Positions 19,094 through 63,072 of a stretch of 64,000 nt of DNA are shown one piece after another. Position numbers and translations under genes: made by a program. This DNA comes from Antitrichia curtipendula. Lineage: Eukaryota; Streptophyta; Bryopsida; Hypnales; Leucodontaceae. The first letter of the stretch is position 1. Each line of letters opens with the position of its first letter. The stretch covers positions 3,100,001-3,164,000 of the forward strand of contig OX579639.1 in NCBI GenBank assembly GCA_951230915.1, given 5' to 3'. The notes below the pieces were generated by a model. It saw only the letters and a list, made by a program, of their open reading frames with translations, was not told the DNA's origin and did no database searches.

Positions 19094-19184
19094 GAAATAA
19101 AAATTTAAAATTGATTTTCTATATTTATATATATGTGAAAAATTTGAATCATTCCATTTTGAATAATAGATGAAAGTTATGCAT

Positions 19185-21654: not shown

Positions 21655-22126
21655 TACTACTTCACATGCAATAACCATCAGCGATATTTTGGAATCCAAA
21701 AAATGTGATGTTTATCACGACTAAATTCAAATCTTAGGCCACAAACTGAGATTGACTGTCTGGTGTAGATTTTGGTTTCAAAGTAATGGATTGTTACTAA
21801 GTTAACAAAATTATTGGATGTTAATATTATTGATTAGAACATGTGAGTATAACAGAATTGATATTGTTATTAGAATACATTTTGAGCTCCTCATTGAGAT
21901 GTGACAATAAAGAGGGAATGTGTATCCGATCAAGCTATAAGAAAAAGGTTGGGGTAAATTAGCCCCCCAAAAATGACAATTTGAATTGCACTTGTGGAGT
22001 AGTTGTGGTGTCAATGTTTTGAGCTAAATTAAATAAAACTCTAATAAGTACTACATATCCATTCTTTGTCATTCTTAGGTTCCTGGGAGGGTCATAACTA
22101 ACCTCTAACCCTACATCCTCACCTAA
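21655..22126. other. Intergenic, no feature seen
   Basis: AT-rich DNA with no convincing open frame, inverted ends or tandem structure. Confidence 0.5.
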
Positions 22127-24229: not shown

Positions 24230-24585
24230 ATTATCGGACTGTGTCTGTACATGATTTATAATAATATACAGTAAGCCATACAGACCTTCAATTACCTCGC
24301 TCTGTCATCAGTTAGGCAATCAATTGCCAGCTCGTGCATTACGTGTTTTCTGGCTTTTGATTGCAGGGGAAAGAAAGCCACAGTCTGAGAGATGAAGCTC
24401 CGGTTGATCGGTCTGTACGAGCGAAACACACTGGAAACTCTTCCGAAACACTTGTCCGGTTGCGGTGCGGCCACCGCAACAATTTCGACGCCTCTTTCAC
24501 ACAGTCTGGAGAACATGGCAGTCGAAAGGTTGAAGATCGCACTTTTGTGTCAATTTCGAGCATTTCAATGTATGACTTGTGTGTG
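24230..24585. other. Strongly conserved block of duplication unit 1
   Basis: This block matches 28670-29013 far better than the rest of the duplicated units: in the ~210 bp after the GATTGCAG|GGGAAAG junction I count seven differences. Open frames exist on both strands (for example LIGLYERNTLETLPKHLSG on +, and a cysteine-containing frame on -), and both stay open in the second copy, so coding strand cannot be decided by eye. TTGATTGCAG before GGGAAAG looks like a + strand splice acceptor. It could equally be a UTR or a noncoding RNA. Confidence 0.4.
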
Positions 24586-25572
24586 GGATTGTAATTTTTG
24601 GGTACAAGAACCAAATCTCTTGATTTATTCGGATTTAATTACTGCGGATGATTAGTACTCACCAATATTCAACAATATCTGCCTCATTCCAAATTCATCG
24701 GCACGTCCATTGCACGCCTACGTGTGTGATCGTGTGAAGCTGTTTCGTACTACACGTCGTCGAAATTGCAACAACACAAATAAAAACTGATTATCGCCCG
24801 AATGGAGAAATTGACGCAGTTTCAGTCACCTCAAATCTCCAGTACAAGCCCCAGTTTTTCGAGCACTTGAATCTCATAAGTACGTAGAGCGCTTGGAACA
24901 CGCCATTTTTCTCAGCGGATTTGTATCGCTAGGCTTGGCCACCCTTACCGTCTACAATTCCCTCATAAACACGAACTCAGGTATCAAAAATCATAACCCC
25001 CGTTTCTATTCCAAGAAAGGTCTGTAGCCATAGAGAATTATTCAAATGATACGAGCACTATTTTTTGATTGAAAATGTATGTCAAATTGATACATAAGTT
25101 GGGGAACGAGACCAAGTACATGTGATTCACCCAATTTCACCCAAGTATGGATAAAAGGGAGGGAAATGATGAATATGCGAGTAAGCTTCCATCGAGCTTC
25201 CAACCATGCAGGACTATGAAAATCTCCCATAATTAGTGCAAAACGTCCTAATTAAAGGACAGTGGATGTCGTTTTACCATTCCCTTGGAAAGATGGTCCT
25301 GAAACCATACATGTATCAAAAAATTAACTCCAAACCCACTCACAACCACGGGTAGACGACGTCTCCAGCTTAAGAACACACAGGAGATATCCAAAATGGA
25401 AATTGGACAAACGCTCTATTGTGTTTTCAAATTCCAGTGATTCCAGGAGTTTCAATTCCCTGCGTATCCTATTCTATCATCACTGGACATTGACTAAGGA
25501 ACTTTTAAGAAGTTCATAGACGGACACAATTTTGGGTTCCTCCTGTGAGATGAAGAGAGAATTCTGCCGTGC

Positions 25573-28263: not shown

Positions 28264-28387
28264 CGCCCAAGTGCATGCTGTTATCAAGGACCCGAAGTCG
28301 GTGCTGGATATTTTGGAATTGCGGCCGCCCAAGTGCATGCTGTTATGAAGGACCCGAAGTCAGTGCTGGATTTTTTGGAATTGCGGC
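28264..28387. repeat. 64-bp unit repeated twice in tandem
   Basis: The unit starting GCCCAAGTGCATGCTGTTAT and ending GGAATTGCGG is present twice head to tail with a few substitutions. Unit 1 of the large duplication has only one diverged version, so this is a later local event. Confidence 0.8.
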
Positions 28388-28669
28388 GTCGACTATGAGG
28401 CCGGGCAAGGAAGCTTCGGTCTGTACATGTTTGACAACTATCATGCATGAAGCTGGAGTTCGATATGTACGGACGAGTAGGAATTAATGCATTTGGGAGG
28501 GGGGTGCAGCATGGACACATTCAAACTGATTTGAATGGATGCATTCTAAGGTATGTGTACCAAGAAGCACCACGTGAATTGCATGTACAGACTCCATTCG
28601 TTGTAAGCTGAGCTTTTAGGTGCACATGACTTGAAATGCACGCAATGTGGCTCCTTTGCATCAAATATC

Positions 28670-29013
28670 GAACTGTGTCTGTACATGATTAATAATAATA
28701 TACAGTAAGTCATACAGACATTCAATTACCTCGCTCTGTCATCTGTTAGGAAATCAATTGCCAGCACATGCATTACGTGTTTTCTGGCTTGATTGCAGGG
28801 GAAAGAAAGCCACAATCTGAGAGTTGAAGCTCCGGTTGATCGGTCTGTACGAACGAAACACACTGGAAACTCTTCCGAAACACTTGTCCGGTTGTGGTGC
28901 GGCCACCGCAACAATTTCGACGCCTCTTTCACACACTCTGGAGAACATGGCAGTCGAAAGGTTGAAGATCGCATTTTTGTGTCACTTTCGAGCATTTCAA
29001 TGTATGACTTGAG
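28670..29013. other. Strongly conserved block of duplication unit 2
   Basis: This is the partner of 24230-24585. The same GATTGCAG|GGGAAAG junction and the same long open frames on both strands are present. The ATG that would open the + strand frame in unit 1 is TTG here, which weakens the + strand coding reading. Confidence 0.4.
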
Positions 29014-29578
29014 TAGTTGTGTATTGGATTGTAATTTTGGGGTACAAGAGCCAAATCTCTTCAAATCCGGATTTAATCATTGTGGGTGATGGTTTCTTAA
29101 GAAACCCCGTTTCCATTCCAAGAAAGGTCTGTGGCCATAGAGAATTATCCGAATGATGCGAGCACTATTTTTTCATTTAATTTATTCGTCAATTGATCGA
29201 TACGCAAGATAGTGCTGAGAAATTGAGAGACCAAGTACAATAAACCCAGTTTAAACCATGTATTGGTAGAAGGGCAGGAAATGATATTTACATGTGAGCT
29301 GATCCTTCCAACAGAGCTAGACTCTAAACAGGCTACGAGTGACTACGAAAATCACCCACCAGTTGAAAATGTAATTAACATCCTAAATGACGTACATCCT
29401 AGTAAATGACATTCGGATGTCATTTAAACACTCCCCGTAGACCCTTTCCTAAGGGAGGTGGTTTCGAAACCATGTGTCACTAAAATAACTATAATAACTA
29501 CTGTAATAACAACCACGGCGAGATCACATCTCCAGCAACAGAACACGCAGGAGACATGAAGGGAGAAATCTGCCGTGC

Positions 29579-34488: not shown

Positions 34489-34703
34489 TTAACCCCTAAA
34501 GTTCCATTTGACTAGTTTTTTAAATCATATACCCTCTAAATCTAACATTTCCATTTGCTTAGATCTAAATTTGAAAAATAAAAAACAAAAATTTTAAAGC
34601 GTTTAATCTTGAAGGAGTTGAAGGATTCTATTGTATCCAGGTAGGACAAAAAATTCAACATCTTTGATCACACAAATTAGAAGATTATAGTGTTTGAAAA
34701 TCA
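34489..34703. mobile_element. Left half of a family-B MITE split by the 17-kb element
   Basis: It starts TTAACCCCTAAAGTTCC like other family-B copies and runs to GATTATAGTGTTTGAAAAT, where the Mutator-like element begins. The continuation (TAGGTCAAAG) resumes after the element at 51692. Its last 11 bases, 34693-34703, are the left target duplication. Confidence 0.65.
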
Positions 34704-34880
34704 ACGACGCTAGCAAGCGAGCCTAGAGCAGCGAGCTTGTGAGCCCCGAGCGTGGAGCCTATGAGCCTAGAGCCCCAAGCACAATTTTTTCTTTAATTTT
34801 AGATTTTTTTTAATAGAAATAGAAAAAATCACTATTTGTAATAAATTTTGAGACCTATGACCATGATTTCAACTGTGGCC
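34704..34880. repeat. Left terminal inverted repeat of the Mutator-like element
   Basis: This end is GAGCC-rich for the first ~75 bp, then AT-rich, then GAGACCTATGACC followed after a few bases by AACTGTGG. It pairs with 51560-51680. The GAGCC motifs are sub-repeated and could be transposase-binding sites, as is usual for MULE ends. Confidence 0.75.
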
Positions 34881-35234
34881 CTATTACCGTGTGGTTTAAT
34901 TTTTAACCTTTTTAGCTTGTAATTATTATTTTCTGTGGAAGAATTTTGTGAAAGTTTTATACAATTGCATGAACACTTTGATTGGCCCTACTATATTTGA
35001 TATGTGTAATCAATTAGAAAAATCCACTACAAAACAATAAAATGTATACCTTCAATACATAGATTTTACAAAAAAAGATTGGAAAAGAACAAGCCTCTAC
35101 TACAACTATACTAAACCTATTTGTTTAGTTGTCATTTACCTCTGAATAGAGACAATGACTAATGGCATAATTAGTAGCCTTGTAGTATTTGAATGGCCAT
35201 CAAATTGTAGTCTTATTGACTTTTTGTAAATATA

Positions 35235-35318
35235 TACTCCTTGTCTCAAATAAATATTGGTGATTTTTTGCAAAATACAAAAAAAGCATTCATTTGGTAT
35301 TATTTTGAGACAGAAGTA
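35235..35318. mobile_element. Small Stowaway-like MITE
   Basis: The left end, TA then CTCCTTGTCTCAAATAAATA, and the right end TATTATTTTGAGACAGAAG then TA match the Stowaway consensus CTCC.T..GTC(C/T)CAAA. It is only about 80 bp. It lies inside the Mutator-like element near its left end and is a later insertion. Confidence 0.7.
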
Positions 35319-35788
35319 GTACCAACCTAATGGAGTGCCTCCCCCCCCCCCCAAAAGAACAATATAATATGCAAGACATAAAAAAATCCACCAAAAAAAA
35401 AAAAAAATGAAATAAATGGTTATTTATTTAGGATTTTTATTAATAACTATTAGTTATTAGCCTTAGGTTTGTGACATAGAATCTACCTCCAAAAGTAGGT
35501 AGCAAGGATAGACCTTATTTTTGATATTTTTGATAATTGGCAAGTTCAAATACCTCCAACAAATTCTTCATTCATATGGTCTTTACACCAACATCCTTGT
35601 TACATTCAATGTTGAAGTAAAAGGTTCCATTAATGTTTTGTCACTTCACTTCAGTGATTGAATTGACAAAGGCAAATACATAATAAAGGCAAATACTTGG
35701 TCCACTACATATAATTTAGGAACTTTGCACATCTAATTGCACATGAGCGCTATGCTGCTCATGAACTACCCTTAGTTGTGGTCTATGC

Positions 35789-38700
35789 TTATTCCAAGAC
35801 ATTTATGATTCCAGCTCGGACAAGGAGAAGCTTCAATTCATTGAAGCTGTAACTAGGTGCATGAATGAACTTGTCCTCAAAAATGTCCATTTTACAGAAG
35901 TACATAACAAGGTAGTATAAATGCTTGCAATTCACATATTGTTGACGTCCTCCTATGGCGGAGACAACCATATTCACAAAGTCCGGGCATGTACAGGCCG
36001 AAAACATGCCCACTGTAATTTGATAGACATTGGTGTTTGCCATTGACCCGGTCTCCAAAGATACTATAGCACCAAGGCCCGGAAAGGGAAGCAAGGTGAC
36101 GCCTAAGATTGTCCCTTTGATATTCCCCGCACTCTCCCACTTATTTTGTTGTTCAATTGTAGGTGCATTTGCAAGTCGACGGATGGTTTTGTTATTCCTC
36201 ACAGTCGGATACGCATCCGGGTTGAAAAGTGGCAATTGATCATACAAAACGGTCTCAAATATCTTTGACATTGTGAAGAGACGGCGGGGAGACATTGTCA
36301 ATCGCTCTTGTAGACAAAAGCCAGGATGTTGCAGCATCAATGTCTCTTCCCTATTTAGGTTCGTCCCTGTCAAAACAGGCCACACCTCTGGAACTTTTGG
36401 CCAATCGATGACCCAAGCCCACTTTGTTCCTTTGACACATCTTTCAATATCATCCCAACAAAACCAAAAGTCAGTCACCACCTCCCAACGGGTACCATAG
36501 TCCTCTTTTCTCCCGCAATAAGTTGGGGCAGGTCTTCTTTTTGGTCCCTTTGCAATTTTTGTTGTGCACTTCATATTTGATCCACGTTGTTGAGCTTGAC
36601 ATCTACTGTTGGATTTGTGATTGATCCTTGCTATATGCCACTTCGATGTATCACAGTCGCTCTCCAAGGCCTTTGTCATGTGATGCACTTCTGCATTTGT
36701 TTGCTTTGGGATTTCCACGCTTTTGGAAGACTCTCCTTCTGCCCTTGTGGATCGTGTTTGAACTCGACGTTGGGAGAAGTTCACTTTGTCTGGGCGATGT
36801 AAGTCTCCTTCCGAGCCAATAGGAAGATCTAATTTTCTCTTTGTACTTCCAAAGCCCTCCTCCCCTTCCAAATGAGGAATACGAGTCCCAACATTCTCAG
36901 CCCCAGATAAGGTATTCAATGCCTCTGCAATCTTCTTGGGATCTCCACTTTGCCTTGCGGCCCGCAACTTCAACTCCCCCTTTGATGGACCAGATCCAGA
37001 TGCGTGGCCCTTCAAATATGCCCGATAGTTTGTCATTTGCATCCATGCGCGAATACTATCGTCGCAAGTGGCATCAAACAAATTGTTCCCCCAATTTCCA
37101 GACAGCTGCAACCACTTGTTGTGAACGGTTTCCGATAAGTTGCAAGAAGGCATGTCTGCCATTTTGTCCAAACTCAAATCCTGTTAAATCATTTGATATC
37201 CCCGTTTAGTATACAAATACAATCTGCAACTTCATATAAAATGAGACATTCTAATTTCATATCCAAATTCAAATGTTAAAAATAAAAACTATATACTAAT
37301 AGATCTTTCCAAAACACCTTTTAGGATGAAAAGATGTTTTAGAAAGACCTGCTAGTATTTACATTTTAAATGCTTTTACAATTTAATCATCTTTCCACAA
37401 CACAAAAGAAATGAAAAATAATGAAAAAAATAAAATATATTGAAAAAATAAAATATGATAAAATAAAATACTTTAATTTAATGAAAAAAATTGAACAAGG
37501 AAAATTTGGACCTACCATTTGCATAAAGCCACCCCACTGCCTATAGCAAAAATGCCAGAATGCAAGCTAGTGCTCTAAGTGATGAAGAGCATCTTCTGTT
37601 GCAGCTCCGGATGAAAGCTCCATGATCGAATGGCAAGGTATCGTGTCTCTGCCTCTTCCGTAGTTGTCGAATCTTTGTATTGTTTGCACAATCGAGTATG
37701 TTGATGCTGTAAATCCTCCTTGATGTACTTTTGAGTGTGCTTTTGTAGAGAACTACTCCAATGTAACAAGCATGTCCTTTCACGCTTCACCATTTTGTCT
37801 TCTGCAGAACCAGTGCCATAAACAATGCGAACTGCATTCCAATTGGCCATGGCGCTGTCCGCCATGAAGCCTTTGAAGTTTGGATGATCGAGTCCACATC
37901 GAGATATGACTGCATTCAAGCACTTCCAAAACTGCACTTGAATCTCTGTATCCTCAGATTGCATATCACATACTGCAATAGTCATTACCTTCTTGTAACC
38001 AGGGTCATACACGTGGCACGCCATTGTTGTCCATTCTTTTACGTGCTTCACGTGGTCAAACATAACCCACGCATTTTGGAGGTCCCCTCTTGGTTGCATG
38101 CGCCTCACCAAGTCTACCCCGCTGCCCGGTCCCTCCGTTAGCATCTTGAATATGTACACCTTCTCCTTGCCTTGACCAGAAAAGACGCTATCATGTATGT
38201 ACTCAAACTTTGAGTCCTTCTTCATGGTCATGATGTTGTCGATTACACCTCCACGGTTGTTTGAACGAAAGGACGAAATTACGTTGCGTATGTTTGGACT
38301 GCTCAAGAATTGAAAGCGATCCATAACATCCTCCAATTGATCACCTCGTAGCATCTCCTTGGGTCCTTCTTTGTTGTGAAAGAGTTCGTTGCTTAAGAAT
38401 TGTTTGCTTGCAGCCAGAGCAATTGCAGAGTTGGTGGCCGTAGGTGTTTTGACCACCTCCTCTGCAATGAGACCAGAGATAGTCTCTGCTGAATCTCGGC
38501 ACATACCTTTGGCAATAGGATGTGTGTGGTCTCCCAAATGAATAGCTGCTCTAGTCATTTTGGAATTGCTGCCAAAGCAATAGTAGATCCTAGCATTGCA
38601 TACATTCAAATAGATAGGAGATGTTTTGCAAACCTTGCATACGAGAGTAGAATCCTTGGGAACACAATTGCCTATCGAAAATGGATAGGTAGTGCTACCA

Positions 38701-39674
38701 CTCCACTCCGTTTCATTTATCTTTGAAGATCTCTTCAAGTAATCACAATCTTGATTTGTACAAGCAAGATGGCCTGCACAAAATGACTTCCTGAACTTGA
38801 GGTGGTCATTGTTGTGAATGTTGGTCGTGACAAGTTTGCACCATGGATGACCATCGTACCGCTTGTCCATTCCCTCCAAGTTCCTTGCAGCCGATGAAGA
38901 AGCCGACGATCGACATGGAGGCAACTCAAATATGACATCCCCGTTGAACACTGGAGGTAGAAACTGTAATCGATGGTGTTGCATGCCTTCAAAATTGATT
39001 GTAGACAATTTGTTCCTAGAACGATGCACAGAAGAAAGTCTCTTCAAGCAATCTAGGATGGACACTTGGTCAATTGGATTTGGATGTAGTGGGGGTCGAG
39101 AGAAGCTTGAATTTGTGGGACTACAAGATGGAGTGTGAACCACATAACTACAAAAAGGCTTGACATCACTAGCTATTGGAGAAGGAGAACTCTGTGTGAG
39201 AGACGGTACATTTGGAGACTCTCCTTCTGATTCACTTGACAATAGAATGATGGGTTCTAGAATCTCTTTCTTCACAGAATATAGTATGCTATTTGACACA
39301 ACATGGTCACCGTCATTTGAAACAAGACTGCTAGACACTACTAGAGGCACGTATGGCATATCCACGGTAGATGTATCAGACTGACGATTGCGAATCTTAG
39401 TGGAAGCTACAAGAAGAGATAGAGGTAGTCCATAAACTCTAAAACTACCTTCATGAAGATACCAACAGTGTCCATCTTCTTCAATTGTCTTCAACACAGG
39501 CACAGATTCCTTCAATTCCAAGCTCTCTGACTTCAACTCTTCTTCAACATAGATGGATGATTCTAAAAAACAAAAACGAACATAGAGCAGGTGAGTGGAT
39601 ACTCTAGCTAGTCCTTCGTGGTTCAAAGGGAATACCAATGGCACTTCATGCCCGTCTGCTTTAATTGATGCCAT
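35789..39674 (-). pseudogene. MULE-type transposase (zinc finger, DDE core, SWIM), damaged
   Basis: The gene is read from the ATG at 39672-39674. Exon 1 runs to 37516, the intron is 37181-37515 (donor ATG|GTAGGT, acceptor TTTAACAG), and exon 2 is 37180-35789. The order is: a Ser-rich N-terminal part with an acidic SUMO-interacting-like motif (IILLSSESE, residues ~142-150); a Cys/His finger at ~299-389 (C..C..C ending DHTHP), like WRKY-GCM1 fingers of MULE proteins; and a transposase core at ~530-680 with candidate catalytic Asp in MFDHVKHV (~540) and FMADSAMANW (~606), plus CLLH (~635-638). Exon 2 ends with a SWIM finger, CTC..23 residues..CKH (about 35920-35995). Lesions: after SWSF the frame ends early at 37575. 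A one-base shift near 37616 re-enters a frame with GAATEDALHH and FWHF.YRQWGG, which itself holds a TAG at 37567-37569 before the splice donor. The family is certain as a DDE transposase, and the assignment to MULE rests on the SWIM finger and the element's ends. Confidence 0.85.
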
Positions 39675-40318
39675 TTCAAAACACTCAAGAAGACTATGAA
39701 TAATGAAGTAACTTAAGAAAAAGACTAAGTTTAGAAAAGATTGAACCATATATGATATTTGGAAACTGAAAGCATCATGAGCATTAGAGACGTGTCTCAA
39801 ATGTATTTGCAGCATAATCATGGACAATTACAGTTAAATAAACTAATGAATTTGAATTCAAATTGATCTTTAAGAATTCTATATTCAAATTAGTGTACTA
39901 GCATATATCAGAATACTATTAAATACAAGGACTCTTCTTAAATAGATTGGAGGCTTTATTAGAGATGGATCCACATCACTGAATAATGAGCCGTCACTAG
40001 CATGACTAAAAGGTCATGTTGCTAGGTGGAGAATTTTAAAGCAGCTATTTTTAATGAAATGGACATTAAAACTCGCTACGTCGGCGATGACAAATTTAAA
40101 AAGGACACCTTCACCTTGATTTGAATAGAAGTTAGGAAAAAGTGGTTTAATTATGTCAGAGACTCTCTCAATTGTTTTGATAACTGCACCAAGTGCCAAG
40201 TGGTTCTTCAAACTTCTTTTACAATGCAATTACTATATGTCGTACTTCTGAGAGTGCTATATAGTATTCTATATTTTAAGATGACCCTCACAGTTCATTG
40301 TGAAGTTTGTTAGTTTCC
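39675..40318. promoter_or_regulatory. Divergent promoter region of the Mutator-like element
   Basis: The 644-bp AT-rich spacer separates the start codons of the transposase (minus) and the cargo gene (plus). A TATATAG at 40258-40264 lies 55 bp before the cargo ATG. No equally clear TATA box was seen for the transposase side. The arrangement would let the two genes be switched on together. Confidence 0.45.
40258..40264 (+). promoter_or_regulatory. Candidate TATA box of the cargo gene
   Basis: TATATAG in GAGTGCTATATAGTATTC lies 55 bp upstream of the ATG at 40319-40321. In AT-rich DNA such a motif can arise by chance. Confidence 0.35.
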
Positions 40319-43116
40319 ATGTTCTTAGAGAATCAAAGCGTCATAGATTTGTATGATAATAGTACGAGGAAGAGGCGTAGAAGCAGGTCCTTTTTTTTTT
40401 CCTCGTTGAGGATACTAAAGAGATCTAGAATGAAAGGAAAGAAATTAGCGTCAAAGAGTAGGCAATCTAGTCCTGGAGACACTTGCAAGGTTCTTTGCTT
40501 TAGTGGGCAAGAGCGGGAAGAAACTATGATCACTTTTCAAAATACTTTAGAGACGCTTCACCAGGAGGCAATAGAGAGCGAGGGAAACCTCACCATTTCT
40601 TTGCAAGAAAGAATGCCACAGACTACAAATGTAAGCACTTCTTACCACTTCATCTTGCTAAGTCCATTACTAACCTACCTTCAATCACTTCATATGTTGT
40701 ATTAATATTTGAGGCATTCAATTAAAGTTTTGGTACATTCCAGTCAACCAACCTTGTTTAGGAATTGTTGTAGGACATCCCTAGCATAATATACACAATG
40801 GCCAGTGCATTCTGAAACCACTTTACTCCACTTTTATGTGATACTAGTGAGAAGTGATCCAAGGGAGGTATTTTTTGTCCTTCTTAGAACAAAATTGTAG
40901 ATGTTGATTGTTATTGGCATAGAATTTAGTTTAAGTTTTATGTTCAAATTGTTTGCTTGATTTATTTTGGTGAACTCATCATTATGATTATTAATTGGAA
41001 CTTTAATTTTTGAGTATATATTTGAGCATCAAATGCACATTCACTTACTTCTGCTAGAATCAACACATTGTCTTTCCAATAAGACAATCATATGATCAAA
41101 GGGTTTATTGTGTTTTCTTTCTTGCTAAATTTTACTTGAGTTTTTTAGATTGTTTTTTTAGTTTATGAGGCTTTTAAATTTGTTCTTGATATTGCAAATA
41201 TATGAGTCAAATCATAGTTGGCAACAATCTAATAGGTTTGATTCAAGGGTCACTATTTTGTCCTATCACCTTTGCAATATTAGAAGAAAATGGAACAATG
41301 TTCAAAAAATACAATTGAAGATAATTTTTTTCTATTTTTGTGCGAGTAAGTGAACAACTGAACATCTCTAAACTTCTATAACATTTTTTTGTTAACTAAA
41401 TGCTGACTGTGATATTGGACAGTCAAATTAAATGGATTATAGATAAAATTATAAATACACGCAATGGTGAATATTGTAAAAGATACACATTTATTGTAAT
41501 GCATTCAAAAGTTGACTCAATTGTTACAAACAATGGCAACCCCAAAACTTGGTGAATTGAAAAGAAAAACTTGTAAATTTCAAAAACTTCATGAACAACT
41601 TAATTGTTGTGAAATCCAAAATTGCTTCAATTGAATAAATTTCTCAAATCATTTGGTAGTAGCAATAGAATTTTGAAATCATAAAAGCTGTAAAAGTGAT
41701 ATTACAGAGGTGATTGCAAACTATTACTCTATTTCTGTAATATAACATTGTGTGAAAATATTATTTTTATATATGCATGATTGAAAAAAATTTTACAAAA
41801 TATTAAAATTAATTATTTCAAAGACTTATTGAAATCATTATCATGCATTCTATTCAAATATATCAAAATTTTACTAATATGTGATACAATGAATGTGTAG
41901 CATAGCAAGCATGAGCCCCTATTATTAATGGTAGCATTTGTGATATTACAGAGGGAGTTATGATTTTAGTAGTATGATTAGACTTCCTCTACTTTTGCAA
42001 TATTTAGGATATAATGCTTGGAGAGTGATAATTAGCACTTGCATTGTTTTTAGTGTATCTTATTCAAAATTGAAGAGATAAGGTATAGAAATAGACTCTT
42101 TGAATGGTCATCCTTGAAGCACAAAATGTCTCAATAGTCGTAGCTCTACCTTTGGTCATTTAGATATTTTGTGGTCAAGAGACAATCTATAGAAAGGATT
42201 TCTAGAGTCATATTTTAATTTGTTTTACTTCACTCAATAAAATTTAATTTTTTTTAAATTATTGCTAAGAAATTCCAAAAAGAATTCTCATTCCACTTCA
42301 TGAAAAAATTTCAAAATAATTTATTAGTATTAAAAGTTAAATTTACATTTATAAATCTGATTGAATTACAAAAACATCAAATAGTGTTTCAAAACTTTTG
42401 ACAATTAATCTTACATAAGTGTGTTACTTCATTTACTTGTACTACAGAATATAAATTTTTTGATTAACATTAATATAGAGGCACGCAAGAAAAATCTAAA
42501 ATAAAAGTGTGTTACATCTACCAAGCTTAGTAATGAAATTTTTTATTTAAAAATCCTTATCATGAGTTAAAGCCGTGCACTTCTTATCTACAATGCCCTA
42601 GATTTTAGATACATTGAAATTTGGTTGGCCGTATGTTGTGCATGCATCTGCTCGGTGTTGTTCCCGAGATTTTTGTATGGCGTTGATGGTTGGCGGCTTG
42701 GCGCTCAACCTCTTAATAACTACTACGCGTCTTTAATTACTCAAGGACCTAATACGCGTCTTTGCTCCTCCTCCCGGCCTGCTCCATTGACCCTTCACCA
42801 TCGCATCCTTGATCCGCATCCCTTGTGCAATATCTTGCTTCTATTTTTTTGATTTTGAGCTCTTCCATTGTATAAGATTGTGCAGGTTCACGCAAGAGTC
42901 ATGAGGACCACACGTAGCAAGGGGAAGGCCCAAGAGCAGGAGCAAGAGCAAGAGCAGAGAAAACAATTATGTGAGTATTTTTTACCACAGTTGCTATGAA
43001 ATTGTCATGAAGTGGAAAAGAAAAGTGATTGTGTGTTTGCAGTCAATTGCTGGTAGGAATAGGAAGCATAGTAATGCTCTTTTGAGCTTCAAATGATTGT
43101 CTTTTGGAGATTCCGT

Positions 43117-45645
43117 AAAGGCCCCACCAGATGATCTTTGGTCCCGAAGGTAGACCTTGAGATACCAATTCAAATATACATTTCTGAAAAGTGAGCAAGA
43201 GTCACGTTACTACATATTCAAAATCCGGACTTTTCATAGAGCTAAGGAATGGAATGTAGGGCTAAAGGATGCGAGTATTGTTATTTAGAACTTTGCAATT
43301 TGTAATGCGTGACTGTGACCAGTAAACATGTCCATGAAGTGCCGATTGTGAGCTTCTAGTCTACGTTTCTGTCTTGACTGTACGCCAGGCGGAACCCTCC
43401 TTAATGCACTAGAGCTATAGTATTTTGAGGTTTCTACTGCACTATAGGGTATAAGTAAGACAAAGGATGAGTATGTATATCACATTGTCGTACCTGTCCT
43501 CTCTTATCTTTTCTTCCAGGATCTGAAATATTCAGAAAAAGCACAAAACGTCTTGAATAAGAAAATGTTCCTCTGCGACGATTAGTCTCCTTTGTAAGGC
43601 CTTATTGAGCATCAAGCACGCTTTAGATATTACCATCACCCTCTCTTTTCTTATATCTCTCAATCGAGAAAGAGCCCTGGTGATCGGAAATAATATCAAC
43701 AATATTTATATGAAAGTCCACAACTGTTCAACTTAGCTTTGGTATCCTCTACATGGTCCAAGATACTCATTTTAGTGGGATTTGTGATTTTTTTCTAGCT
43801 CGAAGATGTTGTAGAACATTCTGAAGAGGGTGTTGTTGCCAATACGTTTGTGATTCTTTTCAGTGTAAAATTGGGGGAGTGACTGGGAGATCGTCTTTTC
43901 TACCAAAATGTTGAATCCACGTATAAGGCCTCAAAGTTCTCTTTGTATCAAATACAAACCCAGGACTCGCTCGTAGCCTTGATGATTGAAAACCAAAACA
44001 GCAAAGATTTAGAACAAGAAATAAACTTACTAGGAGATGACTCTCTCTCTTTCTCTCCGTAGATAACAACTGGGTGTAGACATGACCAACAATGTTGGAG
44101 GTGTACTTTCCTCCCCCGCACACAATACATCCAGTGTCATGAGGTCGGAAAAAAGCCTTCATGATTGTTATCAATGTTCACAACTTGACCAAAAGAGCGA
44201 GTAGTGATTGATGCAAATTAAAATTGATATCATGATTCCAAACAATTTGGATTCTCGATAAGTTGCTTGAGTCATAGCACTAGAAAATTAGTATCTTGGC
44301 TTCAATACTTGATAAACGTGTACAAAACTAATGAATCATTTGAACCTAACCATCTACACTTGATTCAAAACTTCCAGTCAATTTTTTTTGTTCTGGAGAT
44401 ACTAGAGGGAACCACTGAGAAGGCTTCGGTCCCAAATGGGGTATCAGAGCTCTAATTTGGTATCCCTAGAACTCAAAATTGTAGGCCCAACTTTTTGTCA
44501 TCGTTGAAATTTAGCTTCTTTCCAAAAGTGCATGGGGGCTTGGATATTTGTTGTTGTGCATTTGTTGTAGTCTAAACCTGCTTGAATTTCCGTTTTAAAG
44601 CTCATTTGCAGTTGCCCTCATAGATTTAGAATGTCAATCGTCACCTTCAGTGTCTCTCTGATTGCTATTGCGGAAGCTTGTAAATGTCAGAGCTCCCTCA
44701 GACTTTTGTACATTAATTTCTAGTAATTGGCTAAGTGTGATTCTAATTGCTTTTCATTTTGGCATAGAAGTCCACTTTTGGTTTACTATGGTCTTCTTTA
44801 AATTGTGATATAGTAGGAAGTCTACCTTGTAGATTCATAGGAAATCCTAAACCTATATATTTTAGCCATAGTTTAGGGTTTCATACATTGAATTAGCTGA
44901 AACTAATTGATCTGTCAATCCCACTGGAATGTGATACTCATCTCAAGAAATTCTTATCATCTTCACCATTGTTAATCAATTTTGACAGAGTGAGGAAAAT
45001 TTCAAATTCTTGGAATACCGTAGTAACCCCTCGGAAAGCCCTTTGGTCCCAAAGGGAGTATTATAACTTTGAACTGATATCCCTATTTCATGAAAAATGG
45101 TATGAAGCTGATGATTTTGAGTGTGGAAGAGTTTGTCATGATGAAGTGCCAATTGAAGTTAGCAATTGTCAACTACATGATTTTTGCAATTATTGAATCT
45201 TTGTCAATATTGATTGAAAGTGGTATAGTCAACAATTGCAGATTTTTGTTTTTATTGTACATGTAGTGATGCTTTTTTGTTGTAAGGTCAATATGGTTGA
45301 CTAGTGAATCGAATTTCTAATAATGAAAACTTTGAATTTTGTCACACAAATGATATTTTCTACAAGATTGATATTATTTTTAACACTTCTGGCGTTTTTG
45401 AATCTTGCATAATTACGGGTTGTCAAAAATTATGATTTTTGGTTTTATATTCTTGAAATTTGGGGATATAAGGCACACCTCCCACGAGGGCCTTCGGTTC
45501 CAAAAGGGGTCCTGAAGGTGGCTACTAGTATCCCTATTTAGAGTCACAAATTCCTACAGTGAACCAAAGAGACCTCCCAAGTGGGCCTTTGGTTCCGAAG
45601 GGAGTCTTGAAGGAGCACTTTGGTATCCCTATATTTTGAATGTCT
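43117..45645. repeat. Scattered ~55-bp motif, about five copies, in a cargo-gene intron
   Basis: Variants of GGCCTT.GGT.CC.AAGGG, often followed by GTATCCCTA, occur near 43130, 44425, 45035, 45485 and 45590. The core is close to a hairpin (CCCTTTGGTCCCAAAGGG). The copies are irregularly spaced and diverged, two of them only ~100 bp apart. They lie between recognisable exons, in the interval where one exon could not be found. The minus-strand open frame at 43860-44174 overlaps this interval and is not recognised. Confidence 0.55.
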
Positions 45646-48600
45646 TTTAGATAGTTGGTACACATTGATTTTTTGAATTCATTTTTTAAACTTGAAGTTG
45701 AATTTTATAATCATCAATTGGAGGTAAGTATGTAAAGAATATTTTGTGCATTCAATTATGCATATGAAAATATTGTAATCATTATACACTTCCTCTAACT
45801 CTATGTTCTTATGTCATTGTGAATTTGAATCTTGCAACCTGAGGTGGAATCACAAGAGCTTCTTCAAACTCAAAGTTCCCCTCTAGCAACTGAGGACATT
45901 GAGATTTCTTCTCCACCTCCAAATCATATTCCGAATACACCCATGGTGGTGAGTCTTGAAGATCAATTGGATGCTATTGATAGGCTGTGGGATTTTCTTG
46001 ATGTGCAAATGAGTAGTTCAAAGAAAGCCACCAAAAAAAAGAAGGATTGTCCAATATTTTCATCAGAGAGCTCTAGCACCAGAGATGCAAGGTTTGCTTA
46101 CTTTTCTAGAGACGATGAATTAGATGGATCGGTATCAAGTCCAATTTTTGAGTCTGAGGTAGAAAAGATTTGACAAGTAGGAAGTTATGGACAAATGAAT
46201 GAAAGTGATTAGACTTTCGGATTCAAAGCATTGATCAGTAGCTTGTATTTTTCTACATGATCAATAAATCTACTTTCTTAAAATTTAGTGACATTCAAAA
46301 ATTGTCATTCAAAATTTGAAGTATATGATAGAATATTAGATTTATACTTACTATTGTATACAAATTGCAACGTGACAGGTCACTTCTACTCCAGAAAATT
46401 CTACAATGGTTGATGTGATGGGTAGTCCTGGAACAGATGACACCGCTCAACCTGAGCTTGGTGGTGAGGAGGAAGAAGATGGAAATCAAATGGAAGTTGT
46501 GGAGTTTGGTGACGAGGAGGAGGACAAAATGACAGAAGATGAGCTTCACCGTTCCCAAAAAGTAGATTTAGTGGCAACTATTGCCAGCTTGAGGGCAAAG
46601 CCAGAGTCATTAACTCGTCTACGCATCCCCCTTTGCCGTATGGTTGCAATGCCTATGGTAAGGCCAACTCTCTCTTGCGATTTGGTAAAACTGGAGCAAG
46701 ATTTTGTTTGTGGATATCGTGAAGGATCATCAGTTTTCTACGTGTCTACTGCAAACGAGGAAGGAGAGAGCATCGAATGGACAACAAAGGAGAAAGAGGA
46801 GTGGGAGCCTCTTTGGAATGCAAAGAACGATAATTTCACAAAATACTTGGATTTACATGAAGAATTACGGCACATGAAGAACTTAAAGTTCTTTGTGTGC
46901 GATGGCAATCACCGTCTTCGAGCTTGGATGAACCACATCATCCGTTTGCATTCATTTGATATGAGGTGGCACTATGCGGTGGATTCAATCATATTGGAGA
47001 CAAAAGGACGTGTTGAAGTTGTCATGCAAATTATGCATGATATAAATAAGTAAGTTACAATTATTTTTTATAATATGTTTCATTTATTTCATATATCAGT
47101 TCATTTTTCATTAGCTTTGAACAATGATTATTCTTATTCATTTATTGAATATTTGAATGTTTTCTAATTTAATTGAAAAATTATGCAGGCAAACAGAGGA
47201 TTCTCACGTGAAGACAAACCTCGTGCACACCCTTTACCGTGTGCAAAAGTATGGTCTTCTACCTATGGAGAAGTTCAATGAATTGCTACGACCATCAGAA
47301 GTAAAGAAGTGTGGATCACAAGGTGCCCGCAGGACTTGGTATTCGATGCCAACTGACATATTTACGTCATTTGTATTTCGGGTAAGTGTAATTGTCTTTA
47401 TATTTTAATTTAAAGATTTATTAAATTGAATTATTGGCATTGACAATAAATTTGTTTTTATGTGTGTATGGTGCAGCAAGAAATTGCCTCTGCTGGTGAT
47501 GCGGCGGTTCGAACATACCACGAGACAACATCTGAAGAAGAAAAGACTGGTGAAGGTGTAGCCAATGCAATGAGAATGGCATCAAAGGGAAAGGCTGCAA
47601 AGTTAGACGCAAAGATGATGAAGTTGTTGGCAGTTGCAAACCCTACTCATGGTCCGGAGTTCTTGAAAGAGGTAATTGAATTTTGTGGATGAGACTAGTC
47701 ATTGGTATTGCATTTTTTTTGTTGTCTAATAAAACTCTAATGCCCAGGTGTAGAAACATTGGAGTTCAAATAGTAGTCCCGAGATGAATTTGGAGAAGCT
47801 CCAACTCGTGGCCACATGCAATACAACACCATACCATAAAGTCAAATTCCTCAAGTGGTGGAACCTTTTAGTACCATCTCGTGAAGCTCGGAAGTTTCCT
47901 CCCAAACCAGTTGGGGAGGACAAACTCACTGCCTTTTTGAATTGATGTGTATAGTATGCTGGGGTAAGCATTGTGATTTTAATTTTATTATATTCAAACA
48001 TTCAATTTCAATTATTAGTATGCTAATTATATTAAGTTCAAATAACTTTGGATTTTAACCAATTTTTGTATGTCTATAATGTTTAGGTGGAAGATGCTTC
48101 TAATGAACTCTTCGATACTGTCATCAAAAATGACTCCATTGTTTTGGACATGGACTCTCCTTTAGAACCTGAGACATTGATTGAGTATATCGAAGGTTGG
48201 AAGATGAAGATTTGGGATCACGATTTTGGATCAATCTTGAGAGGCAATGGCAACTTCAAAAAGTCTGATTCTTTTGCTGCCACGGATGGTGTGGACAAGT
48301 GGTGAAACGTGTGATCTTTCGGTGAGTTTTAAAATATTTTATTTCCTATGTATTTGAATTGAAGAGGGTTGAAATAGGAGATCTCTAATGTTCACATATT
48401 TCCACAGGTACTTTAAACATGAGTTGTTGTCAAAAAAGACAATCACGCGGGTGGATCTTCTTCCTTTTTTGGCTACATGGCAAGACCGTACTTCACCAGA
48501 TTTCATGTTCACGGCAAATCATCTTCGAGTGTGGACCACAGCTCATCTTAGCGGCGTTGCTTGGTACCTTGATTGCTCGGGAGGGTACGTTCATCCATCT

Positions 48601-48970
48601 GAGGTACGATTACATGACACTCTTGAGAAAATGGATGTGCAAGACATTCAGTCCAAGGAGTTTGATGGCATGGATGAAACGGCAAGAGAGAGGGCAATGC
48701 CAAACGTCAAATTGCTGTCAAGAAGAAGATTGATAAAGCAAAGGAAGAGCGTGAGAAGGCAACGGCAAGAGAAGTGGAGAAGAAATTGAAGGCGGCAAAG
48801 AAGGTAGCAGAAAAGGAGGAGAAGGGAAAGGAAAAAGGTAAGAAGAAGGTGGACGGAGATGTAGCAATTCCGGCATCATCTACGGTAGACCAAGCCTCTG
48901 AAATGCAACCCCGTTCTCAAACAAGGTTGAAGAGGAAGGTTGAATTGATGCAGTTGACTAAAAAAACAAT

Positions 48971-49716
48971 CATTAGAAGACTATTGGGGTCTCCAAAAGG
49001 CCCCGCGGGGGCAGCTGTGGTCAAGGGAGAAGGACAGCATGGGCCAACGAGCCCTGTAACTACCCTGGCTGCCAACACTGCAGCTGACCGTGAAATTTTG
49101 AGGTTGTGGCCAATGAGAAGGAACCTCCACTTGCTTACTGGACCGCTGCTGGCCAATTGTCCGTGCTGCCAGACGCGTCAGTACAATAAAACAATCCAAA
49201 GCTAGGACGCTGAAGGACAGCCGCACTTTCGTGAAATACATATTTTAATTTACCATTCTAGTATTTTAATACTAGATTCTAATATTTTAATACTAGAAGG
49301 GACGCTCCTGTCAGCAAAGATAGAGACCGATGCTGGCGGGAACCTTGCTGACTGTGCAGCATCGGCATTGTTAAGGTTCATTATGTGGTTTCAGTGCGAC
49401 AGGCCCCATTAGATTTGAATTAAAAATGTAAGAATTCATTACATTTGCATAAAAAAATGAACGTCTGGAAAGGACAAACCGTGCGGCATACTCACGAGTC
49501 TTCACCATTTTCAACTCCATGTCTTGACTGCATCACGAAATTTGGCATCCACCTAAGCATTGGCAGCACAACTTCTATAACTGATGGAAACAGGTGTCAA
49601 CTGCCCGCACTAAAAGCTTTACAGGTGGAAGCATGCCCAAGCCTTAAAGTCAAACGGCGGAAGCTGCCCACACAGGCCTTAGAGGGCCTTTTGGAGACCC
49701 CAAACTGCTTCTAATG
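48971..49716. mobile_element. 746-bp MITE inserted in a cargo-gene exon
   Basis: The left end CATTAGAAGACTATTGGGG leads into TCTCCAAAAGGCC. The right end inverted is CATTAGAAGCAGTTTGGGG leading into TCTCCAAAAGGCC, about 32 bp with a few mismatches. If the element is ignored, the exon reads on in frame across the junction from LTKKTI to QGVDAIITG, so it is a precise insertion into coding sequence. No target duplication is evident. The ends resemble family D (CATTAGATG). Inside is a small tandem TATTTTAATACTAG repeat (about 49260-49300) and no credible gene. Confidence 0.75.
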
Positions 49717-51559
49717 TTTGCAAGGGGTTGATGCCATTATCACAGGCAGAGATGATGAAGACAACGTGGAGATGCTCATTCTAAACATCTCCATCAATGA
49801 AGTGGTGGAAAACATAGAGAAAGAGGTCCCCAATTCATACACTGAGGTCATGGACTTCTTGAAGAAGGTATAGATTTATGATGATTGTTACGCACTGTTT
49901 TTAATGTTGAATGTTCAAATCTTAATGTGGCTAAATTACTTCTAATTTGAGATTTTTTTGTGTGGCAGTTATCGACTGGAAAGGATCGGATGTTTCACGG
50001 GAAGATGAACCGATGGCCTGGCATTGACCTTGTCATTTTTGATTGTCCTGAGAACTTGCCCGTGCCGGGGGTATCTTCTCCGCCAAGTGCAATACCAGTG
50101 TGGAACGCAAATAAGGAAGATGAAGTGCTTCAGTCTGCATTTGTTTTTGCAGAAAAGCATCTGCAGGACCACGGATGCCTCATTGTCATCCACTCGTACT
50201 CCACCGACTCTAAGGCTAGTCTAGCGGGACTTTGCGAGACGTACCAGATGTTGAAGAAGAGGGAATGGATTTGCAGGAATCCACTTCATTTGACCTCGCC
50301 CTTCGATGTTACTTGCACGGTTAGTTTTTTATAGTATTTTTTAATTTCATATTAAAATTTTATTGTACTATATTTCATTCACTTCTAATGCTTTCATTGT
50401 TTGGATGTTTCAGACTCAAAAGTTTCGAATCACCCTCATGGTGAAAGACCTCGGGGTGAAAGGAAAATCCAATTTCACTTTTAGATGCACTCCGACAATG
50501 AAGAAAGTTGATATGGACATTGGACGGGATGACATGCTCATGAACTTCACTAGCATAGGAGATTTGAAAATGAATGGTGCCAAACCATGGCGAGGTGCTC
50601 AAGAGAAGGACCCAAGGTTTTTGCAAATTCTAATCGAAGCAACAACGGAAGAAGGAGATGTTGTATTTGACGTCACAGCATCCACTGGTAAATTTGAAAT
50701 GAATGTTATTGTATTCTCCATTTTGAATTAATAAATTTGACCATTTTATTGATGATAGTGCTCTTGGAATTTGCTAGGCGGAGCAATTACCGCATGTCGT
50801 GGCACAGGGCGCCACATTAAGGCACTAGAAGAGGATGAGGAGATATTTAATTCTCTCTTGAAACCCATGATGATGATCAAACCAGCCGCGGTGATATTGG
50901 AATCCCTAGTTGCAAATGCGACAACACAAGATCCGGATGCTATGACTGTTGTTCCGCGGAAGTTTGCACGGAAGTCAAAATATAGTAAGTAAGTTGTCAT
51001 CATTTTGTCTATTGGTGTGCGTGACAAATTTTTTGCTCTTTCTTTTTTTTTAACCAAAGATTGTTTCACTTTTTTGCAGTCGTCGTGGACTGATGTCAAG
51101 AGAGAAAAATCAAAGACGTCATATTAGTCCGCAAAAGCCATTTCAATTGCCGGTGTATGCAGAGCAAATGGCATCAGCATTTGTAGATTTTGGTTGTTCT
51201 AAGCTGAAATCTCGTAAACAAACTTATGCGCTTAATGTTCTACAGTTCATAGATGGATCGACATCAGAGGGTAGAGAGTCATCAGATTTGTCTAGTAGTA
51301 GTGATTCATCTACTGAATCCACAAGGACATAGACTCATGAGATTGACATACCTCATGAGTTTAACTACTATGTATTGGTTTGGTTTATGATTGGATTTGT
51401 GCGCTTTATGGCTAATCACTTTACACGTGCATTTTTTGAATTTCAACTATTCTTTAATTAATTACTTGGAATTAGATTACATAGAGTTGTTACCAAAGAC
51501 TTCAATTTAAAAAATAACACTGCCTAAACTTCCTTGAAAATAACTTCTAATTTACTTTA

Positions 51560-51680
51560 TTTTTAAAGACTAAAATCCACAGTCATAGGTCATCTTCTCT
51601 AAAAAATTGAAAAAAAAATTCATGCTCACAAGCTCATAGGCTCATAGGCTCATGCTCACAGGCTCGCCTACTAGCAACCC
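51560..51680. repeat. Right terminal inverted repeat of the Mutator-like element
   Basis: This end is the inverted partner of 34704-34880. It carries GCTCATAGGCTCATAGGCTC and ends GGCTCGCCTACTAGCAACCC, immediately followed by the 11-bp target duplication. Confidence 0.75.
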
Positions 51681-51889
51681 TGTTTGAAAATTAGGTCAAA
51701 GTTTTTTGAGGCCCTACCTTATAGGATCAACATACTTTTTGGGCACTTTGGGATTTGTTATTTTGCACCACGAATATCTATAAATTCATGGAATCTTGTA
51801 TGCTATCATGTTAGATAATTGTATGCCAAGCTTGAGAAGAATTAGATGAATAAGGTAATATGCTCTTAAATTGACCATTTAAGGGTTGG
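51681..51889. mobile_element. Right half of the split family-B MITE
   Basis: It begins with the duplicated TGTTTGAAAAT and continues the family-B order interrupted at 34703. It ends near ATTTAAGGGTTGG, a decayed form of the CTTTAGGGGTTAA terminus. Confidence 0.5.
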
Positions 51890-55274: not shown

Positions 55275-56164
55275 GTCACTGGGAAGGTTTCACATCGAGT
55301 GCTACAGGGAAAAATAGCCCATTGCACTGTTATGTGGACCCGGTGAGTGGGAGGGATCCAATTAGAAATTAACACGTATCAGACTCACTAGTCTCCACCA
55401 ATGAGGCTGTCCACTGATATTGGTGAAACTTCACCTCCTCCTTTCCCGCTTGCCCACCCCAGCAAGACCTTCGGTGGAGCGGTTTTGTCTTCTTGCTTGA
55501 TTTAGTTGTAAACTTGCCCACAAGGCTCACATGCAAGCTGAGCCTAACTTACTATCTCCTCAAAAGAAACAACCCACCTGACCTCCAACCTGTGCATCAA
55601 CTCCATGTTTCTGAAGGGTACCTAAAAATATCTGTTCACCCGTACGTACACTTCTCTCTCTACTAATATAAATATGAATTATATCTATTTCAAATAGAGA
55701 TGTGTTAATTATATACAATTCGCTACACTATGCATTCAAAAGACAGAAACACAACTTCTTCAAGTCAATGGCTTGCTTTGAAATTTAGTTGAAAACCGAT
55801 AAAAAAATTGATGAAATTTTTTCTCAAATGTCCCATGTGTAGCCACATGGTCTACAGTAGTAATTTAATGTAAAAAGTAATCTAGTTAACGCCAGACTCG
55901 CAAGCATGATGTAGATGATGTTAAGGAGTGCCTCTGTTTTACAAAAAATTGCATGAAACTGTAAGCAGACAAGCAGCATTACCATCCCCACAAGTGACTT
56001 GCCCTCAGTTGTGATGGTGGAAACCTCGCCAAAGTGATGATGAGTATGAATCAGGGCTTTTTTTTTGCTTTTTGGTGTCAGATTGCACCAGAAAAAATAA
56101 TCTGACTACAAAATGCCAAAAATATGTCAAAAAAACTTGGATGAAATCGCCAAAAAATTTTGAA
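55275..56164. other. Intergenic DNA, moderately GC-rich, no gene seen
   Basis: The part from 55280 to 55660 is less AT-rich than its surroundings, but I could not extend any frame into a convincing exon and see no conserved motif. It may be the remains of a gene or element. Confidence 0.45.
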
Positions 56165-57107
56165 TTAACCCCTAAAGGTTTTTGACTATGTTTTCACCAA
56201 AACCGCTCCAGAACTGCCATTTCTAATACTAGTGCCAAATTTTAGAAAAAAAACATTTTTGGACACTTGTAGCCGGAGGATCTTGTAGTAAACTTCTTTA
56301 AGAAGATGTGGAAAAAATTTCAGAATTTTCCACCAAGTGGATTGCAAGATAATAGCGTTTGAATTGACAAAAATCCTTTTTTTGTCCCTGCGAAAAAACG
56401 GGCAGCTGCCCTCCACAAGGTCACATTTGTATGAAAAAATGTCCAAAATGATGGTTACTCTTTGGATTTATTCTTCAAGGCAAGTTGGCTACATGCTTGA
56501 AAAATTTCAGATCATTTGGAATCGTACAACATATAGGAAAAAAATAGTAAGTAGAAAGAGGTAGAGAATGATTCAAAGCACTAAATTGTCAAGAATTTAT
56601 TTATGAAATTGGAAAATGCCAATCCCAACGATTGTAATGTTGTAATAAACAATCTACACCCAATGTTTTTATTTTTTTTCAAAAATATTGAAAATCGAGT
56701 TAAATAAAGGACTTCAAAGTTTATTTTAGAGTAGAGATTCCATAACTACCCTCAAACTAAGAATCCTCATAACTTTTGACTCATTGATCGGAATGGAATG
56801 ATTCATAGCCTCCCACGTACATATAAATCTAAAGAACCAATTTCAAATTTTAGTTTTTTTTAAAAGTGATTTTTAAAGAAGTTTTTTTTGCTGCCCCGGC
56901 TGCCCGCCGAACAATGAAAATGACATATCATGCAATAACTTTTTAACCATGTAGTCAAAAGTTACGAAAATTGTTGGACCTTAAAGCTACTCCTTGGGCA
57001 CATCTTATGTGAAAATTTCAAAGGAAAAAAAGAAAAATTCCAGTCATAGTGAGCTGCCCAAAATCGCTATGTTGTCAAAAAATGGTGTTTGGTCCTTTAG
57101 GGGTTAA
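56165..57107. mobile_element. Family-A TTAA-flanked MITE (943 bp), complete
   Basis: It starts TTAACCCCTAAAGG and ends CCTTTAGGGGTTAA, inverted relative to the 18140 copy and collinear with it throughout. It is one of the two best-preserved members in the window. Confidence 0.82.
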
Positions 57108-61916: not shown

Positions 61917-62506
61917 TTCATGTTGCAAATTATACTCTCACTCTACGATGACTAAATAATGCAATATCATGCTCTTTTATGCTCTCAATAAAGAAAAAAC
62001 ACTTAACCTCCAAAAGATTACATCCATGATAGTCATCGTGTAGTCAAATATGAAAGTCTCGCACTCCATATCCTCCATTTCTTTTCTATTTATTTGATTT
62101 TATATTTTAGAGGTGAAATCATATGTCTAATATATGTCATAAAATTTTCAAATTCTTTTGGGAAAATTGCAAATTATCATGAATTTTTGAGAAGAAATTG
62201 AAGAAAATTCAAATCAAATACAAATCATGTTTAAATAATTTAGAAATTTCAAAAGAAAAATTCATTGTAGTGTAGAATATTGTAGTATAAAGAAAATTTC
62301 CACGTCACTTTATATTTAGAAATCTAATTATTGATTTTTGACTTCAAACTTCAATTAAATGCTTATTTTAAGGAATTTTTCAAATTTTCCAAATAGAGTA
62401 GAAAGTACACTTAAGTAAAAGTTGTGTTTTGTTAGTCTTGCTCAAAAGAAAAACAAATCATTTTGAAATCAAAGTATTGAAATATTTTGCACAATGTACG
62501 ATTTTT

Positions 62507-63072
62507 TTAATCCCTAAAGTTTCATGACTATGTTTTCACCGAAAAAGCTCAAGAATTGCCATTTTTAGTACAAGTACCAAATTTTTGAGTTTTTTTTTGG
62601 ACATATATAACCATAGGATCTTGTAGTATGCTGACTTGAGAACATGTAGTAAAAATTCCAGAAATTTCCACTGTGTGGATTGCAAGATATAAGCATTCAA
62701 ATACATTAAAACCATTTTTTGGCCCTTCAAAAAACTGGGCAGCTGCACTTCACAAGCTCACTTCTCTATGAGAAATGTTCAAAATGGTGGTGCTTCTTTG
62801 GATTCATTTTCTTAGATAAGTTTCCTACATGCTTGGAAAATTTCACATTATTTGGAGTCGTTCAACATTTAGGAAAAAAATAGTAAGTAGAAAGAAGTAG
62901 AGTATGATTCAAAATACAAAATTATTAAGAATTTGGTTATGGAATTGAAAAATGCAATTCCCAGTGGTTGAAATGTTGTAATAAACAATGTACTTCTTAT
63001 GATTTTATTTTATTTCCAAAAATATTGAAAATTGAGTAAGATAAAGGACTTTAAAGTTTATTTTAGAGTAGA
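62507..63072. mobile_element. Family-A MITE truncated by a CACTA-like element
   Basis: It starts TTAATCCCTAAAGTTTCATG and follows the family-A order (ACTATGTTTTCACC, TAGGATCTTGTAGTA, CTGGGCAGCTGCACTTCACAAG) to ATTTTAGAGTAGA, where the CACTA-like element begins. The rest of the family-A sequence is not found beyond it. Confidence 0.7.

Follow-up and report, generated by a model that had tools for sequence, protein, structure and literature searches.

A MULE-like element of Antitrichia curtipendula carries a gene with a probable ParB-like region and a beta-class methyltransferase-like half with altered catalytic motifs

The element and its copies in the genome

The window analysed here is a stretch of 64,000 nucleotides from Antitrichia curtipendula (assembly GCA_951230915.1, contig OX579639.1, positions 3,100,001 to 3,164,000 of the forward strand), and all coordinates given below refer to it. 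It contains a transposable element of 16,981 bp (34702-51682), which resembles a Mutator-like element (MULE) and carries two genes, one for a transposase (minus strand) and a cargo gene (plus strand). The cargo gene joins a region that is probably ParB-like to a half which is related to the beta-class N4/N6 DNA methyltransferases. The left end of the element reads CAACGACGCTAGC and the right end, as reverse complement, CAGGGTTGCTAGC. Both are bordered by the 9-bp target site duplication TTTGAAAAT (34693-34701 and 51683-51691). The transposase gene consists of a first part that is open over 750 amino acids (37575-39827, minus strand) and a second part that is open over 464 amino acids and comprises a SWIM-like CxC...CxH motif (35789-37183, minus strand). 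The inverted ends are short and imperfect. Taken by themselves they are not unusually similar, as 8 of 1975 randomly paired stretches gave a local alignment score as high as theirs (44), and the case for a mobile element rests on its other copies.

These copies were searched for in the source genome, which comprises 400 Mb in 303 contigs and contains at least 271 pieces matching the methyltransferase half. Twenty copies were fetched. Of seven listed near copies, whose blocks are about 93-98% identical, the flanking regions of six were fetched as well. In all six the transposase and the cargo gene lie on opposite strands of one unit; both parts of the transposase gene are present in each of them, the second part being found in one copy only for residues 1-150. 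Four of the six possess both ends and their own duplications of 9-10 bp (TGTACATTG, CAACATGAAG, TTTTAAGTGG and TGGTCAATTG). In one of the remaining two the left end lies outside the fetched stretch, and in the other it was not found. Including the one in the window, this gives five complete elements of 16.1-17.3 kb with private duplications of 9-10 bp. The cargo gene has been mobilised repeatedly together with the transposase in a roughly 17-kb MULE-like element, and its description as transposon cargo in the first-pass annotation is confirmed by these five elements.

MULEs produce target site duplications of about 8-11 bp, with which the 9-10 bp observed in the five elements agree. The transposase itself we take to be of the MULE type from an inspection of its motifs. 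The designation MULE-like rests on the duplication length and on these motifs. The more definite assignment made at first is not backed by a profile, as the Pfam MULE model did not match the transposase and the SWIM match remained under the cut-off (E 0.16). For the transposase Pfam also returned spurious matches to unrelated families, such as CAT (E 0.007), of a strength similar to that of the single-sequence methyltransferase matches given below. Because spurious matches of this strength occur, single-sequence Pfam matches were not relied on in this study, and profiles, shuffled controls and relatives were used instead. Rfam and tRNA scans revealed nothing.

Close to each end of the element a subterminal array of a short unit could be identified. 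The left array consists of eight GAGC units at 7-8-bp steps (34719-34773, plus strand), the right one of six units of GCTC, which is GAGC in reverse complement, with a spacing of 6-8 bp (51624-51665, minus strand). If all 4-mers with three or more different letters are considered, the GAGC array is the densest 60-bp array in the window and the GCTC array the third densest. In the near copies the left array comprises 5-7 units (four copies) and the right array 5-6 (six copies). We regard the two arrays as candidate protein-binding arrays.

Structure of the cargo gene

The cargo gene is recognised as two open exon joins, which are separated by a degraded middle part. The first join consists of the exons 46379-47049, 47189-47381 and 47477-47671 and gives 353 open codons. 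Its first exon encodes the ParB-like motif CDGNHRLRAW, which is kept in the relatives, and the second belongs to the ParB-side region. The second join consists of the exons 49969-50319, 50414-50687, 50778-50988 and 51080-51332 and gives 362 open codons, which contain FDCPENLP and then GDVVFDVTASTGGAITACRGTGRHIKALEED. FDCPENLP occupies the position of motif IV in the exon 49969-50319. Motif I (GDVVFDVTAST) lies at the end of the exon 50414-50687, and the exon 50778-50988 encodes the remainder of this motif as well as GRHIKALEED; the last exon is 51080-51332. The joined frame was already described in the first-pass annotation, and it holds with all three of the motifs CDGNHRLRAW, FDCPENLP and GRHIKALEED.

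Neither join is open by chance, because the other five frames of each contain 9-27 stops and 5000 mononucleotide shuffles per join, with means of 21.5 stops for the first and 22.5 for the second, never had fewer than 9. The exons have a GC content of 0.40-0.49 and the introns, which are AT-rich and follow the GT-AG rule, one of 0.18-0.32.

The copy of the cargo gene in the window is broken, and its two halves do not form a single intact frame. Two decayed exons on the plus strand (47748-47963 and 48087-48321) contain five in-frame stops between 47751 and 48314. The following exon (48408-48969, plus strand) ends with a lysine/glutamate-rich linker and shows a putative frameshift near 48.7 kb, for which the window copy only was inspected. 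Next comes a nested insert of about 743 bp (approximately 48970-49713) that has inverted repeats at its ends and is absent from all six near copies examined. The start of the gene probably lies further upstream, as the window copy contains a candidate exon at about 45838-46158 (plus strand) that is open and in phase with the first exon of the join (46379). The size of the predicted protein is very roughly 1100-1200 amino acids, which is the sum of the exon pieces and not the length of a modelled protein.

The methyltransferase-like half

Searches with single sequences gave only weak hints on the family of the C-terminal half. PF01555 (N6_N4_Mtase) was matched with E 0.013, the CcrM model with E 9e-5 but with 21.5 bits against a cut-off of 830, and methyltransferases of PHROG weakly from E 2e-4. 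Over NCBIfam, PHROG, Pfam and the PDB the single-sequence searches returned weak methyltransferase matches only and no ParB.

The comparison with known enzymes is based on hand-picked seeds, which for the methyltransferases were 12 proteins (11 from phages, one from a plasmid). Against these the single sequence scored 59.1, while the maximum in 200 shuffles was 25.3. With hhalign a profile of 19 copies reached 78.7 against at most 27.6 in 100 column shuffles. The alignments of both comparisons span 63-78 columns around motif I. When a profile of five copies was compared with the PDB, the three best sequences were CcrM (E 1.1e-5) and DpnA (E 8.6e-5 and 9.7e-5). Positions 18-234 of the profile are collinear with residues 32-253 of CcrM and comprise both motif regions, with motif IV before motif I. 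PF01555 was matched by four of five copies with a best E of 1e-5, the window copy reaching 17.1 bits against a cut-off of 26.7. Retinol-binding proteins followed in the PDB profile search; they appear behind the methyltransferases and from E 0.026 upwards, and we read them as chance matches.

Judged by its sequence, the C-terminal half can be assigned securely to the beta-class N4/N6 methyltransferases, and the kinship and the IV-then-I motif order claimed at first have been borne out by the PDB profile, the hhalign controls and PF01555. That the resemblances to both ParB and methyltransferases are due to chance would be in line with the single-sequence Pfam scores, which lie under the cut-off, and with the unrelated family that was matched just as well by the transposase. 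For the methyltransferase half, chance is rendered very unlikely by the results with profiles and shuffled controls, while it could still apply to the ParB-like one; for the protein as a whole we consider this explanation extremely improbable.

Altered catalytic motifs and selection

The catalytic tetrad of the beta-class enzymes, (D/N/S)PP(Y/F/W), reads DCPE in the cargo family, and the S-adenosylmethionine (SAM)-binding motif FxGxG reads TASTG; neither change had been noticed in the first-pass annotation. The alignment of 19 copies leaves out two of 21, as their ParB part lies outside the fetched stretch. In this alignment the fourth position of the tetrad is E in 17 copies, N in one copy with a disturbed frame and K in one; Y, F or W are found in none. 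The two copies outside the alignment likewise read DCPENLP. In FxGxG, 18 of the 19 copies have S instead of the first G and one has a gap there, and the second G is kept in 16 and gapped in three. An exact coding sequence for DCPENLP occurs at 106 sites of the genome, among which the synonymous codons vary, while the reversed pattern is not found at all. Among the 12 phage and plasmid methyltransferases the usual tetrad was found in 11, the twelfth not being matched by the search expression. A decay of the window copy as the origin of DCPE was considered and rejected, because E takes the last tetrad position in 17 of the 19 aligned copies and DCPENLP is coded at the 106 genomic sites.

The median ratio of nonsynonymous to synonymous substitutions (dN/dS) per exon is 0.185-0.205 for five exons, calculated from pairs of divergent copies with a dS of 0.3-2. 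The number of such pairs is six for exon 1 and 32-150 for each of the other four. Because of the alignment, the 106 DCPENLP sites and the low dN/dS, the altered motifs are a kept family trait under purifying selection and not decay. Since both the tetrad and FxGxG are altered family-wide, ordinary N4/N6 methylation by the predicted protein is doubtful. An acidic segment in the following strand is kept, with ALEED where CcrM has GIERE, and the cargo protein may therefore still bind SAM.

The first-pass annotation had suggested a self-marking or anti-silencing role for a methylase of this kind. The ParB-like part would then bind the DNA of the element and the methyltransferase would, in spite of its motifs, add N6-methyladenine (6mA) or N4-methylcytosine (4mC), by which the element would be shielded from silencing. 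The domain kinship and the motif order as well as the purifying selection on the protein are compatible with this, and self-marking is proposed for the algal relatives in PMC12477816. With a glutamate instead of Y, F or W in the last position of the tetrad, DCPENLP coded at so many sites of the genome, no copy retaining the first G of FxGxG, and the usual tetrad retained by 11 of the 12 compared enzymes, active self-marking seems unlikely to us, and the working N4/N6 methylase of the earlier claim has to be doubted together with its 6mA or 4mC marks.

The presence of the gene could also be explained if it were a captured passenger that does nothing for the element. Fragments of genes can be carried by plant MULE-type elements, the Pack-MULEs mentioned in PMC12477816. 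The cargo gene is, however, present in all six near copies examined. As sequence matches it was also found in several divergent subfamilies of the genome, and it is under purifying selection. We therefore regard a mere passenger as very improbable.

The ParB-like half

The motif CDGNHR is nearly invariant in the cargo family, with N and H in all of the 19 copies and R in 17. The pattern DG[HNQ][HRC]R..A, which was written after the sequence had been seen, occurred five times in 200,000 shuffles and is present in four of 12 ParB proteins. These 12 were also hand-picked (nine from phages, three from plasmids, one of them cut at its end). Against them the single N-terminal sequence scored 27.6, compared to a maximum of 22.6 in 150 shuffles and of 23.3 among 82 other real open reading frames. 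The profile of 19 copies scored 28.9 against at most 21.3 in 100 column shuffles, with alignments that span 20-23 columns only at a probability of 9-10%. Pfam ParBc (PF02195) was matched neither by six members of the family nor by the window copy, and the ParB chains of the PDB were not matched by this half. Fused ParB-methylases were looked for among the comparison seeds, and in the four largest seeds, which were checked, no ParBc was found at E 0.001. The structure prediction did not help, as the single-sequence AlphaFold model of one exon piece had a predicted local distance difference test (pLDDT) value of 32.5 and was discarded as unusable.

Weak matches were obtained for DGQHR (two of six members, best E 0.023) and for DUF1015 (one of six, E 0.0029). 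Both families presumably belong near ParB and would fit a ParB-like signature. These scans also returned unrelated families with comparable E-values (LIC_13241 with 0.019, DUF6909 with 0.025 and DNA_pol3_a_NII with 0.029). The N-terminal half is probably, but not provably, ParB-like. From the ParB domain of the first-pass annotation there remain the kept motif and scores that no shuffle reaches, whereas the similarity is confined to a short stretch and no ParBc match supports it.

The superfamily to which this half would belong includes enzymes. DndB has been placed in it according to PMC10853773, and nuclease and nucleoside triphosphatase (NTPase) activities are reported for it in PMC5512222 and PMC10853773. 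By analogy with what is described for a bacterial ParB-methylase, the ParB-like region could itself be an active nicking nuclease or NTPase, which the methyltransferase fold would only direct to its target. The conservation of D-G-N-H-R and the DGQHR and DUF1015 matches speak for such an activity. The missing matches to Pfam ParBc and PDB ParB, with a kinship that is weakly shown, and the unrelated families of similar strength speak against it, and we consider it quite unlikely.

Prokaryotic and viral relatives

Since a gene of this composition in a plant transposon would suggest a prokaryotic or phage source, as proposed in the first-pass annotation, relatives were searched for. In scans that reach close relatives only, none were confirmed for the C-terminal part in IMG/VR and GTDB contigs, and none were found for the N-terminal part in IMG/VR and plasmids. 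No relatives of the transposase were confirmed in IMG/VR. A tblastn search of phages with the C-terminal part and an E-value of up to 10 gave 241 records. The lowest E among the 30 listed is 0.08; 15 of these 30 are annotated as methyltransferase or methylase, and two as capsid or head proteins. An acquisition from a prokaryote or phage is not shown by these scans.

Other features of the window

Upstream of the element, on the plus strand between 3255 and 9993, exons are found which we take to be those of a gene resembling the plant exocyst component SEC8; a Pfam search with four open reading frames of the region gave no match. A dispersed repeat occurs four times in the window, with three units of about 0.95 kb (18140-19093, 22125-23076 and 56163-57107) and one of about 0.57 kb (62503-63072), the first being inverted relative to the others. 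A direct duplication of about 0.75 kb (23906-24652 and 28359-29090) is 86% alike, its copies lying about 4.4 kb apart with more matching blocks downstream. A hairpin with perfect arms of 66 nucleotides (20423-20578) is located within a larger inverted repeat (19183-19892 and 20577-21294).

A possible role for the cargo protein

On balance, and with modest confidence, we favour the reading that the cargo protein is a DNA-recognising accessory factor of the element which does without ordinary N4/N6 methyl transfer. Such a factor would work for the element and would perhaps bind SAM. The GAGC arrays close to the two ends might be the sites that it recognises, and it may help transposition or counter silencing by the host, while ordinary methyl transfer to N4 or N6 would no longer be carried out. 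As a more tentative suggestion, the methyltransferase fold of a bacterial-type ParB-methyltransferase may have been turned to a new SAM- or cysteine-dependent DNA chemistry, or to a reading of the GAGC arrays by which the element is protected or mobilised.

Several points weigh against the accessory factor. That the protein binds DNA and that the GAGC arrays play a part is inferred, and the homology to ParB is based on the short stretch mentioned above. The tetrads of beta-class enzymes vary, as DIPY, DPPF and SPPY were seen among the compared proteins, and a loss of activity is not proved by DCPE. Between close copies the dN/dS is 0.26-0.46. Saturated dS values occur in 108 of the 171 exon-1 pairs and in 109 of the 210 pairs of the motif-IV exon, the pairs share ancestry, and the median of exon 1 rests on the six pairs given above. 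Broken copies are included in the set, in which nine of 21 are free of stops in both halves.

Whether the protein marks, reads or otherwise handles the DNA of its own element is directly testable, as the genome offers numerous natural copies and the ends of the element bear an array to which the protein may bind.

Comparison with known systems

A bacterial-type methyltransferase that has been domesticated by a eukaryote is known from bdelloid rotifers, in which N4CMT keeps SPPY and is active; it is not known as a transposon cargo. The best matches among the PDB sequences are the beta-class adenine methyltransferases CcrM and DpnA, with CcrM resembling the cargo profile collinearly. CcrM possesses DPPY and FxGxG, whereas the cargo family has DCPE and TASTG in their places.

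A fusion of a ParB-like domain with an adenine methylase is described for Bce_0392 of Bacillus cereus in PMC5512222. The bacterial ParB-methylases share the domain fusion with the cargo protein, but no close sequence relative was found and the ParB part is weakly similar.

The closest parallel is found on algal transposons. According to PMC12477816, ParB-methyltransferase cargo is already known from elements of brown, green and red algae, and Iyer 2011 and Petroll 2025 are cited there for the similar transposon proteins of the green and red algae. The accessory gene of Sola1-1_Ec32 from Ectocarpus encodes 1104 amino acids with a methyltransferase domain whose predicted product is N4mC or N6mA (PMC12477816). 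By this description the two elements agree in being large transposons whose gene for a ParB-like and N4/N6 methyltransferase protein lies opposite to the transposase strand. They differ in that Sola1-1_Ec32 belongs to the Sola1 superfamily and to a brown alga, while the present element is MULE-like, resides in a plant and has replaced catalytic motifs.

In the open-licence literature, among the matches listed, no other transposon with a ParB-methyltransferase fusion and none in a land plant was found beyond the Ectocarpus paper. Within this scope the statement that such a cargo is undescribed in a plant MULE holds for land plants; the algal cases are in print, and because of them the kind of cargo has to be called known. 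As far as this literature shows, the novelty lies in the MULE-like element, in its copy number and in the replacement of the motifs. The element of A. curtipendula thus extends a barely described class of accessory proteins to a MULE-like plant element of high copy number, in which selection has maintained the motifs of the enzyme after their replacement.

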